Source: Caldisericum exile
Lineage (GTDB): Bacteria; Caldisericota; Caldisericia; Caldisericales; Caldisericaceae
NCBI GenBank assembly: GCA_002877955.1
Contig: PNIL01000020.1
Location: forward strand, 1-33,372
Direction of reading: 5' to 3'
Length of the DNA stretch: 33,372 bases
A program made the position numbers and the translations under genes. Below are positions 26,221 to 29,149 of the stretch, one piece after another. The stretch's first letter is position 1. Each line of letters opens with the position of its first letter. Under the pieces are notes generated by a model that saw only the letters and a list, made by a program, of their open reading frames with translations, had not been told where the DNA came from and ran no database searches.

Positions 26221-27669
26221 TTACTCTCCTTTCACAACTCTTATTGCAATTTCACTTCCATATCTTATTGAACCTTGAACAAGACCACCTTTCTCAAATA
26301 CTTCCTCTGTAAATTCAATACAATCATTGTTTATAACCATGCCTGGTGCAAGAACAGGAATTCCTGGTGGATATGGTGCAACAATTCCCCAAGAAATCCT
26401 TCCGAGAGATTCCTTAAGGGGCACAACTTCAAATTCCTTTTGGAATGCCTCAAATGGTAACATTGCAAATTGAGGTGCTTCTGGAAACTTTGGCATTCTT
26501 ACAGTACTCTTTTCTTTACGTGGTTCAATCTTCTTTAAAACGGATACAAGTGTATCTATATCCCTTTTTGATGTACCTATGGTTATAAATAATAGCACAT
26601 TTTGAAGATCTGCAAGCTCAATTTCAATTCCATTTTTATTTAAAATATGCTCAAATTCAAAGCCTGAGTAACCCAGTTCTTGAACGTTTATAGTAAGTTT
26701 AATTGGATCAAAGGCATATATATCATCCCCATTTATTATTTTCTCAGTAATTACCTTAAATCCATCTAAAGCTGAAATGCGTGCCCTTGCATACTCTGCA
26801 ACTTCGATTGCTTTATCCCACATCTCTTTCCCGTGCAAAGCCATCTCACGCCTTGCAACATCAAGAGCAGTCATAAAAATATATGAGGGACTTGAACTTT
26901 CAATGATACTTAGAATTTGTTCAATACGATCTACATTTACTTCCTTAGATGGAATATGTAAAAAAGATGTTTGTGTCAAAGTGGGTAATGTTTTGTGGGC
27001 ACTTTGAGTTACAAGATCGGCACCTAAATAAATGGCCGATTTAGGAAACTTCGGATTAAAAGGAAAATGGGCTCCATGCGCTTCATCGACAAGCGCACGC
27101 ATACCATTTTCATGAGCTAAATCAATTATATCCTTAATTCTCCCTTGAAGTCCATAGTAATTAGGAGTTGTTACAAGTACTGCCTTTGCATCAGGATTTT
27201 CTTTTATTGCTTTTTCAACTGATTCTGGTTTAACATTCGTAATTATTCCAAATTCATCATTGAATTCTGGCTGAACAAAAACCGGTTTTGCCTTTGCAAG
27301 AAGAATTCCACCAATAACAGACCTATGTGAATTCCTTCCAATTATGATTTTCTCATTTTCTTTTACAGAATCAAGAATCATCGCATGCACGCCAGCTGTA
27401 GTACCATTAACAAGAAAGATAGTAGCTTCAGTTCCATAAAGAGTACTTGCAAGATTTTCAGCTTCCCTTATAACACCCTGAGCGTAATGAAGATAATCAA
27501 GACCCGAAACTTCAGTCAAGTCAAAGTCAAAAAACTTATCACCAAAGAGTCTTTTTAAAATCTTAGGAGCGCCTTTACCTTGCGAGTGACCCGGCATATG
27601 AAAAGGAATCATCTTTCGCTTTATATACTTAGAAACTGCTTCATATAAAGGCGCACGTTCTTGTTCCAC
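26221..27669 (-). CDS. speA: PLP-dependent Orn/Lys/Arg decarboxylase (probable arginine decarboxylase, SpeA type)
   Basis: This fold-type I decarboxylase removes the carboxylate of a basic amino acid to make a polyamine or its precursor. The N-terminal FHMPGHSQGKG, LVNGTTAGVHA, DEAHGAHFPF (residues 195-204) and the cofactor lysine in TQSAHKTLPTLTQT (Lys226) are diagnostic. The C-terminal PYPPGIPVLAPGM loop is also typical. At 482 residues it resembles the short form found in Gram-positive bacteria (B. subtilis SpeA), not the larger E. coli inducible enzymes. Arginine is the likeliest substrate, but lysine or ornithine cannot be excluded. The start is GTG with GGAGG five bases upstream. It lies 32 nt after tRNA-Pro(CGG) and 2 nt before the ATPase genes, so it heads that operon. 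Confidence 0.88.
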   Translation of the reverse strand: MEQERAPLYEAVSKYIKRKMIPFHMPGHSQGKGAPKILKRLFGDKFFDFDLTEVSGLDYLHYAQGVIREAENLASTLYGTEATIFLVNGTTAGVHAMILDSVKENEKIIIGRNSHRSVIGGILLAKAKPVFVQPEFNDEFGIITNVKPESVEKAIKENPDAKAVLVTTPNYYGLQGRIKDIIDLAHENGMRALVDEAHGAHFPFNPKFPKSAIYLGADLVTQSAHKTLPTLTQTSFLHIPSKEVNVDRIEQILSIIESSSPSYIFMTALDVARREMALHGKEMWDKAIEVAEYARARISALDGFKVITEKIINGDDIYAFDPIKLTINVQELGYSGFEFEHILNKNGIEIELADLQNVLLFITIGTSKRDIDTLVSVLKKIEPRKEKSTVRMPKFPEAPQFAMLPFEAFQKEFEVVPLKESLGRISWGIVAPYPPGIPVLAPGMVINNDCIEFTEEVFEKGGLVQGSIRYGSEIAIRVVKGE

Positions 27670-27701: not shown

Positions 27702-27779
27702 TGGTCGGGATGGTGGGATTCGAACCCACGACCTCTTGGTCCCGAACCAAGCGCTCTAACCAAACTGGGCCACATCCCG
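27702..27779 (-). tRNA. tRNA-Pro (CGG)
   Basis: The minus strand folds into a full cloverleaf. The acceptor stem CGGGATG pairs with CATCCCG, the D arm contains GTTTGGTTAGAGC, the anticodon stem is CTTGG/CCAAG around loop TTCGGGA (anticodon CGG, G at 37), and the T arm is GTGGG TTCGAAT CCCAC. The discriminator is A and the CCA is encoded. The C1-G72 pair and G37 are normal for proline. It lies 3 nt from the other proline tRNA, and the decarboxylase gene follows after 32 nt without a terminator. Confidence 0.96.
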
Positions 27780-27782
27780 TAG

Positions 27783-27860
27783 TGGTCGGGGCGAGAAGAT
27801 TCGAACTTCCGACCCCCTGCACCCCATGCAGGTGCGCTTACCAAACTGCGCCACGCCCCG
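27783..27860 (-). tRNA. tRNA-Pro (GGG)
   Basis: This is a cloverleaf on the minus strand. The acceptor stem CGGGGCG pairs with CGCCCCG, the anticodon stem is CCTGC/GCAGG around loop ATGGGGT (anticodon GGG, reading CCC and CCU), and the T arm is GGAAG TTCGAAT CTTCT with one G-U pair. The discriminator is A with encoded CCA. It is the first of two tandem proline tRNAs downstream of a good promoter. Confidence 0.96.
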
Positions 27861-27885
27861 ACAACTAAAACTCTTGACCCGCTAA

Positions 27886-27913
27886 ATTATATGAAAACTT
27901 TTCAAATTTGCAA
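27886..27913 (-). promoter_or_regulatory. Promoter for the tRNA-Pro pair (and possibly the decarboxylase/V-ATPase genes)
   Basis: On the minus strand, -35 TTGCAA (27908-27913) and -10 TATAAT (27886-27891) are separated by 16 bp, about 26 nt upstream of tRNA-Pro(GGG). It begins only 8 nt past the 3' end of the RNase P RNA gene. No terminator lies between the tRNAs and the decarboxylase gene, so it may also feed the long operon below. Confidence 0.7.
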
Positions 27914-27920
27914 TACTTTT

Positions 27921-28263
27921 AAGGCCTTAAGTAAGGAATAAGCCGGATTCTGTTCCTCAAAAGAGGCGGCAGTCATTTATCTCAGCGGCCAACCCGGTAG
28001 CGTGAGGGGAGCATCTCTTTGCTACCCTATTTGGCCTTGCTCCAGGTGGGGTTTGCCATGCATAGCCCTGTCACCAGGACTACCGGTGGTCTCTTACACC
28101 ACCTTTTCACCCTTGCTAACCATTGGTTAGCGGTCTATTTTCTGTGGCACTTTCCCTGGGGTCACCCCCGCTTGGATTTCCCAAGCACCCTGCTCCCAGG
28201 AGTCCGGACTTTCCTCAGAAGGACAATATGCCTTCTGCGACCACCTTCCTTACTTAAGGCCTA
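27921..28263 (-). ncRNA. rnpB: RNase P RNA (bacterial type A)
   Basis: This is the catalytic RNA that cuts the 5' leader from tRNA precursors. On the minus strand the ends GGCCTTAAGTAAGG and CCTTACTTAAGGCC pair as helix P1. The universal cores are present: GAGGAAAGTCCGGACT near the 5' side, GTGCCACAGAAA, AAGGGTGAAAAGGTG, GGAGCAAGGCCAAATAGGG and ACAGAATCCGGCTTA near the 3' side. Layout is type A, with P15 formed by GGTAGC/GCTACC. The loop of P15 lacks an obvious GGU, the tRNA CCA-binding triplet of many bacteria. The gene lies 4 nt after the zinc-ribbon protein stop and between tRNA genes. Exact ends are set from P1 and may be off by a few bases. Protein-like reading frames across it are artefacts. 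Confidence 0.97.
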
Positions 28264-28267
28264 TAAA

Positions 28268-28981
28268 TCACTCTATCTTTAAGTATAATATCTTTCCGCA
28301 AATTTCGCAACGTAGAATTTTATCGCCTTTAGTTTCTTTAAGAAACTCAATAAATTCAAGTGGAAGTTTTACTCCACAATTTCCACAATGACCATGGTCA
28401 ACTTGGGATATTGCACCATCAGGAAAATCTTCTCTTATCGAGAGATACTCTCTTGCAAACTCTAATGGTAGCGTTGAAAGGACACTATCAAACTCTTTAT
28501 CTAATGCTTCTCTTTCTTCTTTAATCTCTTTTTCGAGTTTATTGTATTCCTCTTGAATATTATTGTATCTATTTTTTAATTTTACAATATTATCACTTAT
28601 CTCTTTTATCTTTTTTTCCTTATCGGCTATCTCTGAATTTACAAATGATAAACTCTTTTTAAGTTCATCTAATTTTGCGACCAAATTTTCTTCCGTCTTT
28701 TTTGCTGCCTTAAGTTCCTTTTGAGTCTTGAACTGGTTTGATTCTATTGCAGTTTGGACACTTTTTAATTCCCTCTCTGTTTCTTCGATTTCACGTTCTA
28801 TTTCATTTTTTCTTTTTATAAACCCAGACTTTGAAAGGTTTATTTCGTCTATTTCACTTGAAAGGTTTTTTATTTGATCTTCAATTTTCAATTCTTCTTC
28901 TATTTCTTTAACTCGTTTTTCCTTTTCATGGGTTATGGTTAATTTGGTTTCAACTTCGTAAAGTTTTTCCAGATATGACAT
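28268..28981 (-). CDS. Coiled-coil protein with C-terminal C4 zinc ribbon (COG1579 type)
   Basis: The 237-residue product is a long charged coiled-coil hairpin (residues about 1-175) followed by a zinc ribbon with HCGNCG and RCEICG as the two CxxC pairs. This is the widespread COG1579 family, thought to bind nucleic acid or act as an adaptor; its function is not settled. A longer frame runs back through the tRNA-Met gene and must be wrong. An ATG made by the CCA end of that tRNA (28993) has no ribosome binding site. The ATG at 28981 is preceded by GGAGGA with five bases of spacing, so I use it. The message begins only 11 nt after the tRNA 3' end. The RNase P RNA gene follows 4 nt after the stop. 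Confidence 0.88.
   Translation of the reverse strand: MSYLEKLYEVETKLTITHEKEKRVKEIEEELKIEDQIKNLSSEIDEINLSKSGFIKRKNEIEREIEETERELKSVQTAIESNQFKTQKELKAAKKTEENLVAKLDELKKSLSFVNSEIADKEKKIKEISDNIVKLKNRYNNIQEEYNKLEKEIKEEREALDKEFDSVLSTLPLEFAREYLSIREDFPDGAISQVDHGHCGNCGVKLPLEFIEFLKETKGDKILRCEICGKILYLKIE
28282..28310 (-). promoter_or_regulatory. Possible promoter for RNase P RNA inside the zinc-ribbon gene
   Basis: On the minus strand TTGCGA (28305-28310) and TATACT (28282-28287) are 17 bp apart, within the last codons of the upstream protein gene. This would start RNA about 14 nt before P1. The -35 match is modest (4 of 6), and transcription from the tRNA-Met promoter could equally supply the RNA. Confidence 0.35.
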
Positions 28982-28992
28982 AAATTCCTCCA

Positions 28993-29067
28993 TGGTGGGC
29001 CCGCTTGGATTCGAACCAAGAACCAATTGGTTATGAGCCAACCGCTCTGCCGTTGAGCTACGGGCCC
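28993..29067 (-). tRNA. tRNA-Met (CAU), elongator type
   Basis: The minus-strand cloverleaf has acceptor GGGCCCG/CGGGCCC, D stem GCTC/GAGC, anticodon stem GTTGG/CCAAT around loop CTCATAA (anticodon CAT), T arm CTTGG TTCGAAT CCAAG, discriminator A and encoded CCA. It has a normal first base pair, so it is not the initiator. A tRNA-Ile2, whose CAU is modified by TilS, has the same anticodon loop and cannot be ruled out by eye. It is 11 nt upstream of the zinc-ribbon gene start. Confidence 0.92.
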
Positions 29068-29086: not shown

Positions 29087-29114
29087 ATTTTACACAAAAG
29101 TAGATTTTAGTCAA
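29087..29114 (-). promoter_or_regulatory. Promoter for tRNA-Met, zinc-ribbon gene and probably rnpB
   Basis: On the minus strand -35 TTGACT (29109-29114) and -10 TAAAAT (29087-29092) are 16 bp apart, about 20 nt upstream of the tRNA 5' end. The box begins right after the T-run of the peptide transporter terminator. Confidence 0.75.
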
Positions 29115-29116
29115 GA

Positions 29117-29149
29117 GTAAAAACTGAGGAGCTTTAAGCTCCTCAGTTT
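29117..29149 (-). terminator. Intrinsic terminator of the peptide transporter operon
   Basis: A 13-bp perfect stem (29121-29133 with 29137-29149) closes a 3-nt loop. On the minus strand it is followed by a run of five T. It lies 31 nt beyond the last ATPase gene of the transporter. Confidence 0.92.

Follow-up and report, generated by a model that had tools for sequence, protein, structure and literature searches.

In bacteria of different phyla, the gene for the RNA component of RNase P (rnpB) lies downstream of, and on the same strand as, a gene for a zinc-ribbon coiled-coil protein. We describe this linkage from a locus of Caldisericum exile on contig PNIL01000020.1 (assembly GCA_002877955.1), of which 33,372 nucleotides (nt) were analysed (hereafter the window). 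Here, a CAU tRNA gene, the zinc-ribbon gene and rnpB follow one another closely, and the locus is probably a compact version of an ancient bacterial cluster whose core would constitute one transcription unit in this family.

The CAU tRNA gene, with an encoded CCA (28993–29067, minus strand; tRNA gene search and Rfam), is followed by the zinc-ribbon open reading frame (ORF) of 237 aa (28268–28981, ATG at 28981 and end of the stop codon at 28268), placed in the COG1579/DUF164 type (PF02591) by profiles and predicted fold, and then by rnpB, encoding a class A RNase P RNA (27924–28256). The latter matches RF00010 at full length (model positions 1–367, 276.2 bits, E value 2e-89), exceeding the gathering score of 100, and the strands of its helix P1 reach approximately 28262 and 27922 according to the P1 pairing (locus L013). 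Two further genes found by the tRNA gene search and Rfam, tRNA-Pro(GGG) (27783–27860) and tRNA-Pro(CGG) (27702–27779), complete the row. A first-pass annotation of this DNA had proposed the same order on a single strand, and the tRNA search, the RF00010 match and the ORF coordinates bear it out for the minus strand.

The spacers are short: 11 nt from the tRNA to the ATG, 11 nt from the zinc-ribbon stop codon to rnpB by the Rfam start (5 nt by helix P1), 63 nt from rnpB to the first tRNA-Pro gene and 3 nt between the tRNA-Pro genes. Between the encoded CCA and the start codon stand T, GGAGG and AATTT, so the 11-nt leader noted earlier, with its ribosome binding site one base past the CCA, is correct. 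The leader of the corresponding gene in relatives is variable and mostly longer; the exact 11-nt leader is therefore a property of the C. exile genome studied.

Linkage of the zinc-ribbon gene and rnpB across bacteria

PF02591 and RF00010 were searched in the same 292 genomes, with PF02591 proteins found in 239 (205 above the cut-off). The overlap of the best 145 of these 239 and the best 150 of 275 RF00010 genomes by score gave a set of 86 that was not picked for linkage and includes two unlinked genomes of the same phylum as C. exile (G051 and G053). Outside the phylum, 53/84 genomes, representing 43 families, have the zinc-ribbon gene upstream of rnpB at a distance of at most 5 kb and in the same orientation. 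All 53 linked genomes have this arrangement and none lies within the phylum, while fewer than one would be expected by chance for genomes of at least 1 Mb, a figure obtained by arithmetic. One of the 53 (L197) has a contig ending just past the domain and gave no zinc-ribbon ORF match; it was omitted from the locus comparisons below, which therefore cover 52 broad loci.

A separate scan of named genomes with an rnpB motif returned at least 119 loci, many of them Alpha-, Beta- or Gammaproteobacteria by title and some of them short stretches. Of the 119 listed loci, 17 have a zinc-ribbon gene within 6 kb (at up to 5.7 kb), always upstream of rnpB and in its orientation; they come from Actinomycetota, Chloroflexota, Spirochaetota, Omnitrophota, Kiritimatiellota, Myxococcota and Thermodesulfobacteriota. 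Rfam, applied to these 17 loci, confirmed rnpB in 16, the remaining one (L158) being cut short. Three of the seven other-phylum genomes from our first rnpB search are also linked (L001, L002 and L050), the rnpB match of L050 being partial and under the cut-off. The linkage of the zinc-ribbon gene to rnpB across bacterial phyla is secure.

Other genes recur in the cluster. No ORF intervenes between the zinc-ribbon gene and rnpB in 24/52 broad loci. In all, 57 intervening ORFs were found. Forty of them, each from a different locus, were scanned: PF13456 (RNase HI type) is matched by 34, and a histidine-phosphatase domain by four. Of 60 loci having an upstream ORF, 41 were scanned, giving 19 NIF3 and five sigma-70 proteins. 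A CAU tRNA lies upstream on the same strand in 33/52 broad loci and 6/17 listed named loci, and a tRNA-Val(CAC) upstream of the zinc-ribbon gene in 13/52 and 2/17, respectively. The tRNA-Val(CAC) was seen to accompany or replace the CAU tRNA in L090, L106, L176, L178, L181, L184, L185 and others.

Conservation within Caldisericota

Within the phylum, the zinc-ribbon gene adjoins rnpB at 27 of 43 rnpB loci, comprising all loci of two families, f1 (16/16, including the window) and f2 (11/11). The CAU tRNA precedes it in 16/16 f1 and 9/11 f2 loci; in three f1 loci (L026, L029 and L038), the longest ORF spans back over the tRNA, which ARAGORN nevertheless reported in all three. Taken together, the order of tRNA, zinc-ribbon gene and rnpB in relatives and that of zinc-ribbon gene and rnpB beyond the phylum are more than chance.

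The tRNA-Pro pair is less widespread: seven of the 16 f1 loci carry it, from genus g1 and two further genera, and all 11 f2 stretches lack it. In the f1 genera without it, an ORF resembling the 16S rRNA methyltransferase RsmH was noticed by eye soon after rnpB (L015, L017, L021, L022, L026, L027, L029, L034 and L038), in several cases behind a T-run.

Promoters and transcription units

A strong intrinsic terminator (29121–29149, minus strand; 13-bp stem, 3-nt loop and T-rich tail) separates the upstream ABC-transporter genes from the cluster, and between it and the tRNA sits a putative promoter, TTGACT-16-TAAAAT (29087–29114, minus strand), identified by motif scan and conservation. Fifteen of the 16 f1 loci were entered for promoter scoring, one of them lacking a tRNA pattern; the tRNA promoter is kept in all 14 that could be scored for it (mean score 10.1), and 0 % of windows inside zinc-ribbon genes score as high. 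The earlier statement that the spacers hold no terminator agrees with our simple intrinsic-terminator scan, which found none in them; inside the unit, its minus-strand matches fell only within the tRNA and the ORF.

A second putative promoter, TTGCAA-16-TATAAT (27886–27913, minus strand), precedes tRNA-Pro(GGG), and relatives have a similar site: in six of the seven loci having the pair, the top-scoring site in the 60 nt before this tRNA reaches at least 8.5, and in the seventh (L039) TTGCAA-16-TATATT was seen by eye farther upstream. As the tRNA-Pro pair has a promoter of its own, the coherent unit would be CAU tRNA/zinc-ribbon/rnpB, and we infer from the sequence that the region splits into this unit and a second one of the two tRNA-Pro genes, perhaps with the gene that follows. 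The latter encodes an Orn/Lys/Arg decarboxylase (26221–27669, minus strand; PF01276, E value 1e-82) and begins 32 nt 3′ of tRNA-Pro(CGG). The scan found no terminator between the two, and the tRNA-Pro promoter may also drive the decarboxylase gene, on a shared transcript.

The junction with helix P1

By the Rfam boundary, the zinc-ribbon gene and rnpB overlap by up to 11 nt or are up to 16 nt apart in f1 and f2. In all 11 f2 loci (L014, L016, L018, L019, L020, L023, L025, L028, L030, L031 and L032), the terminal codons and stop codon of the zinc-ribbon gene form the predicted 5′ strand of P1; in one example, ACCGCGAATGA pairs with TCATTCGCGGT. The zinc-ribbon stop codon likewise lies inside P1 in L001, from another phylum. 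In f1, 9/16 loci show an overlap of 2–9 nt, partly via terminal A-U pairs of P1, and 7/16, including the window with its 5-nt gap, show none.

Among the broad loci, the nearest upstream coding sequence ends inside or past the start of P1 in 11, 0–20 nt before it in ten and 21–100 nt before it in 17. The count of 11 rests on predicted pairing, the Rfam boundary alone giving 7/52. The overlapping gene is the zinc-ribbon gene in four of these 11; in the other seven it is RNase HI or a different gene. As the stop codon is inside P1, excising the mature RNase P RNA would strip it from the mRNA; such an overlap is a case in which one transcript could be an intact mRNA or a ribozyme, not both.

Alternative explanations

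Several observations weigh against a conserved cluster with a single transcription unit at its core. At 5 kb, 33 of the 86 genomes are without linkage; at least five of these, counted on contigs with a plus-strand rnpB, have less than 3 kb of contig on the relevant side, and two others have the gene upstream in the same orientation, but 6.1 and 9.4 kb away. In the remaining Caldisericota families (f3–f7), the cysteine motif and profile found no zinc-ribbon gene at any of 16 loci within 2.1–6.3 kb around rnpB. In 14/52 broad loci, over 100 nt separate P1 from the end of the nearest upstream coding sequence found, leaving room for a separate promoter, although such distances are upper limits, as our ORF picker may miss intervening genes (e.g. 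in L170, whose family-mate L200 has one). Finally, a candidate promoter 5′ of rnpB in the window matches the consensus at 9/12 positions, and in 4/15 scored loci (L006, L009, L017 and L021) no coding window reaches the score of the site before rnpB.

It is possible, though we lean against it, that the wide linkage is an inherited gene order near the rpoD region without functional meaning. Sigma-70 genes lie upstream in 5/41 scanned loci, E. coli has rpoD near ileX (though PF02591 is unmatched there), and the linked label clusters on a tree of the zinc-ribbon proteins, needing 21 changes versus 29.4 in shuffles (0/500 as low). This was a quick tree, with 58 of 133 branches open, from which we claim no number of linkage gains or losses; seven of its proteins (L299–L305), of unassigned linkage, were placed in no group. 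However, the linkage extends over 43 families outside the phylum and seven phyla among the listed named loci, and order and strand are constant in all 53 and all 17 cases while the other neighbours vary, which suggests that selection rather than inertia would keep the zinc-ribbon gene by rnpB.

We regard as unlikely the view that the stable RNAs are each transcribed from a promoter of their own, with that of rnpB lying in the last zinc-ribbon codons and the gene order reflecting gene packing. The weak candidate in question, TTGCGA-17-TATACT (28310–28282, minus strand), was found by motif scan inside the zinc-ribbon gene, similar sites occur in several relatives, four of them (the loci listed above) beating the coding windows, and E. 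coli rnpB has its own promoter. However, the sites 5′ of rnpB do not on average score clearly above the coding background (mean 8.3; 18 % of coding windows equal them across 15 loci), and L007, L008, L039 and L041 have another or a weaker best site. The embedded sites also overlap conserved codons of the zinc-ribbon gene (CEICGKILY in the window), and the −10 element is only ~20 nt before P1, so that the transcript start would differ from the mature end. We therefore favour transcription of rnpB from the promoter before the CAU tRNA.

The first-pass annotation had linked the expression of all five genes through processing of one precursor, which we consider very improbable: read-through is possible, there being no scanned terminator between rnpB and tRNA-Pro, but tRNA-Pro(GGG) has a near-consensus promoter, retained while the spacer drifts, and the pair is missing from 9/16 f1 loci. 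The idea of a five-gene processing unit was accordingly dropped on account of that promoter, while linked expression through tRNA processing fits the evidence for the first three genes.

Identity of the CAU tRNA

The CAU tRNA was originally labelled tRNA-Met, and this identity could not be sustained; the gene is very probably a tRNA-Ile2 (AUA-decoding, with a predicted lysidine modification). Among the 46 tRNA matches in the sister genome G003, a single contig, are three distinct CAU sequences: an initiator (scoring 69 against E. coli metZ), a tRNA beginning with GGCGGCG and the cluster tRNA, beginning with GGGCCCG. The cluster tRNA lacks initiator features and, among E. coli references, scores best against ileX (52.0, versus 45.5 for metT and 41.5 for metZ); its acceptor strand has C4 and C5, as in ileX, whereas metT has TA and metZ has GG at these positions. 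The presumed elongator tRNA of G003 also matches ileX (54, versus 52 for metT), so it is mainly C4/C5 and elimination, rather than similarity over the whole molecule, that assign the cluster tRNA to Ile2 instead of elongator Met.

Acceptor-stem C4 and C5 are, we assume, determinants for TilS; a literature search for such determinants gave no result. A TilS protein (TIGR02432) scored above the cut-off in G002, G003 and G004, and below it in G000, which is 55 % complete, although the same loose search also matched 14/14 controls, 10 of them above the cut-off.

BLAST searches of E. coli genomes and phages with the cluster tRNA returned mixed labels. Among 50,697 phage records, 1397 match the tRNA (28993–29067) at E values of up to 10; several of those listed are annotated as tRNA-Met, and some of the phage genes given this name may encode tRNA-Ile2. 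In E. coli K-12 (L263; NC_000913.3:3214800-3216500), only mug separates ileX, a tRNA-Ile(CAU) gene, from rpoD, and this vicinity is perhaps a remnant of the rnpB cluster; a PF02591 search of K-12, included as a control, gave no match. Together with the sigma-70 genes upstream of the cluster in other genomes (5/41 scanned), the position of ileX beside rpoD speaks for the Ile2 reading.

The zinc-ribbon protein

On its predicted structure, the protein is a member of COG1579/DUF164 (PF02591) with the HP0958/CT398 fold. The model (predicted local distance difference test, pLDDT, 97; predicted template modelling score, pTM, 0.79) consists of an N-terminal coiled coil and a zinc ribbon, and Foldseek returned only four PDB matches under an E value of 0.001, namely 3NA7, 4ILO, 5Y05 and 5Y06, each with an E value below 1e-6 (TM-scores 0.46–0.64, 16–19 % identity). 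Sequence searches also recovered 4ILO (E value 1e-4) and 3NA7 (E value 0.002); Gfh1 and similar coiled-coil proteins followed at 0.006. As the PF02591 score missed the gathering threshold (23.9 versus 29.1 bits, E value 4.5e-5), the family placement rests on the fold and a wider alignment of 56 sequences. In this alignment, chosen partly by the cysteine motif, C199, C202, C225 and C228 of the C-terminal CxxC...CxxC ribbon are the sole invariant columns. Matches to NCBIfam SMC/Rad50 models were far under the cut-off and were rejected as coiled-coil similarity.

The work on PF02591 proteins available to us deals mainly, in two lineages, with sigma-54, flagella and secretion, whereas the cross-phylum linkage to rnpB, RNase HI and tRNA-Ile2 hints at RNA processing instead. 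Context studies that count protein neighbours alone would overlook RNA genes such as rnpB. In the part of the source available to us (PMC5947703), mRNA binding is reported for the HP0958 zinc ribbon and Rv2229c, a PF02591 protein, is reported to be essential in Mycobacterium tuberculosis. We offer as a speculation, more doubtful than otherwise, the hypothesis that the COG1579 protein is, in many bacteria, an RNA-binding factor of RNase P or tRNA maturation, kept by rnpB for that reason, and that transcripts with a P1 overlap become either mRNA or ribozyme. If true, the overlap would couple synthesis of the preceding gene's protein to the supply of RNase P RNA, that protein being the zinc-ribbon protein in f2 and part of f1, and RNase HI in some other lineages.

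Proposed expression of the locus and comparison with known systems

The order in the old cluster would be tRNA-Ile2(CAU), sometimes with tRNA-Val(CAC) and NIF3, then the COG1579 gene, sometimes RNase HI, and rnpB. In C. exile, a transcript starting at the promoter before tRNA-Ile2 would cover the zinc-ribbon gene and continue into rnpB. The tRNA would be freed by RNase P together with a 3′ tRNA endonuclease, leaving a short-leader mRNA to be translated. A cut close to the 3′ end of the ORF, with subsequent trimming by RNase J as far as helix P1, would yield the mature RNase P RNA. An adjacent unit, under its own promoter, would comprise the tRNA-Pro pair. A TIGR00649 protein (model printed as MG423), which we take to belong to the RNase J family, scores above the cut-off in 4/4 same-genus genomes, in a search that also matched 13/14 controls (9 above the cut-off).

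The closest published description of the gene neighbourhood is that of Pereira et al. 2011 (PMC3372290), whose flgZ/DUF164 genes belong to the same family. In the portion accessible to us, these genes are placed near NIF3, rpoD and dnaG, the figure legend includes tRNA-Met and rnhA, and rnpB is drawn downstream in Borrelia burgdorferi. That portion differs from our analysis in naming rnpB in Borrelia only, in labelling the tRNA as Met and in giving neither counts of rnpB linkage nor a junction overlap. A study of DUF34 found COG1579 to be the most frequent partner of NIF3, and its main text, as far as available, contains neither ‘rnpB’ nor ‘RNase P’. We found no account of the wider linkage in the open-licence literature, and the new part of the present work is therefore the zinc-ribbon/rnpB linkage across phyla, rnpB being shown as a neighbour in Borrelia only in the earlier literature, as far as it was accessible.

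HP0958 (FlgZ, 3NA7), CT398 (CdsZ, 4ILO) and MSMEG_4306 (5Y05/5Y06) share the coiled coil and C-terminal C4 zinc ribbon of the C. exile protein, but have been studied in connection with sigma-54, the flagellum or secretion, and we found no published link of these to RNase P. A precedent for an additional bacterial protein acting on RNase P is provided, in the sections available, by RnpM (YlxR) of Bacillus subtilis, which is reported to associate with RNase P (PMC11898665) and is a different protein.

For the junction itself, the nearest parallel is the gpsB-rnpB (SA1279-rnpB) transcript of Staphylococcus aureus, which, according to the accessible part of the paper, is processed by RNase J (PMC3937233). 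That operon has another upstream gene and, in this part of the paper, no tRNA heading the unit, and its authors see a possible start site for rnpB, whose −35 element is very weak. It nevertheless resembles the arrangement proposed here, in that a protein gene stands before rnpB, a long transcript runs into rnpB and RNase J trims it to P1.

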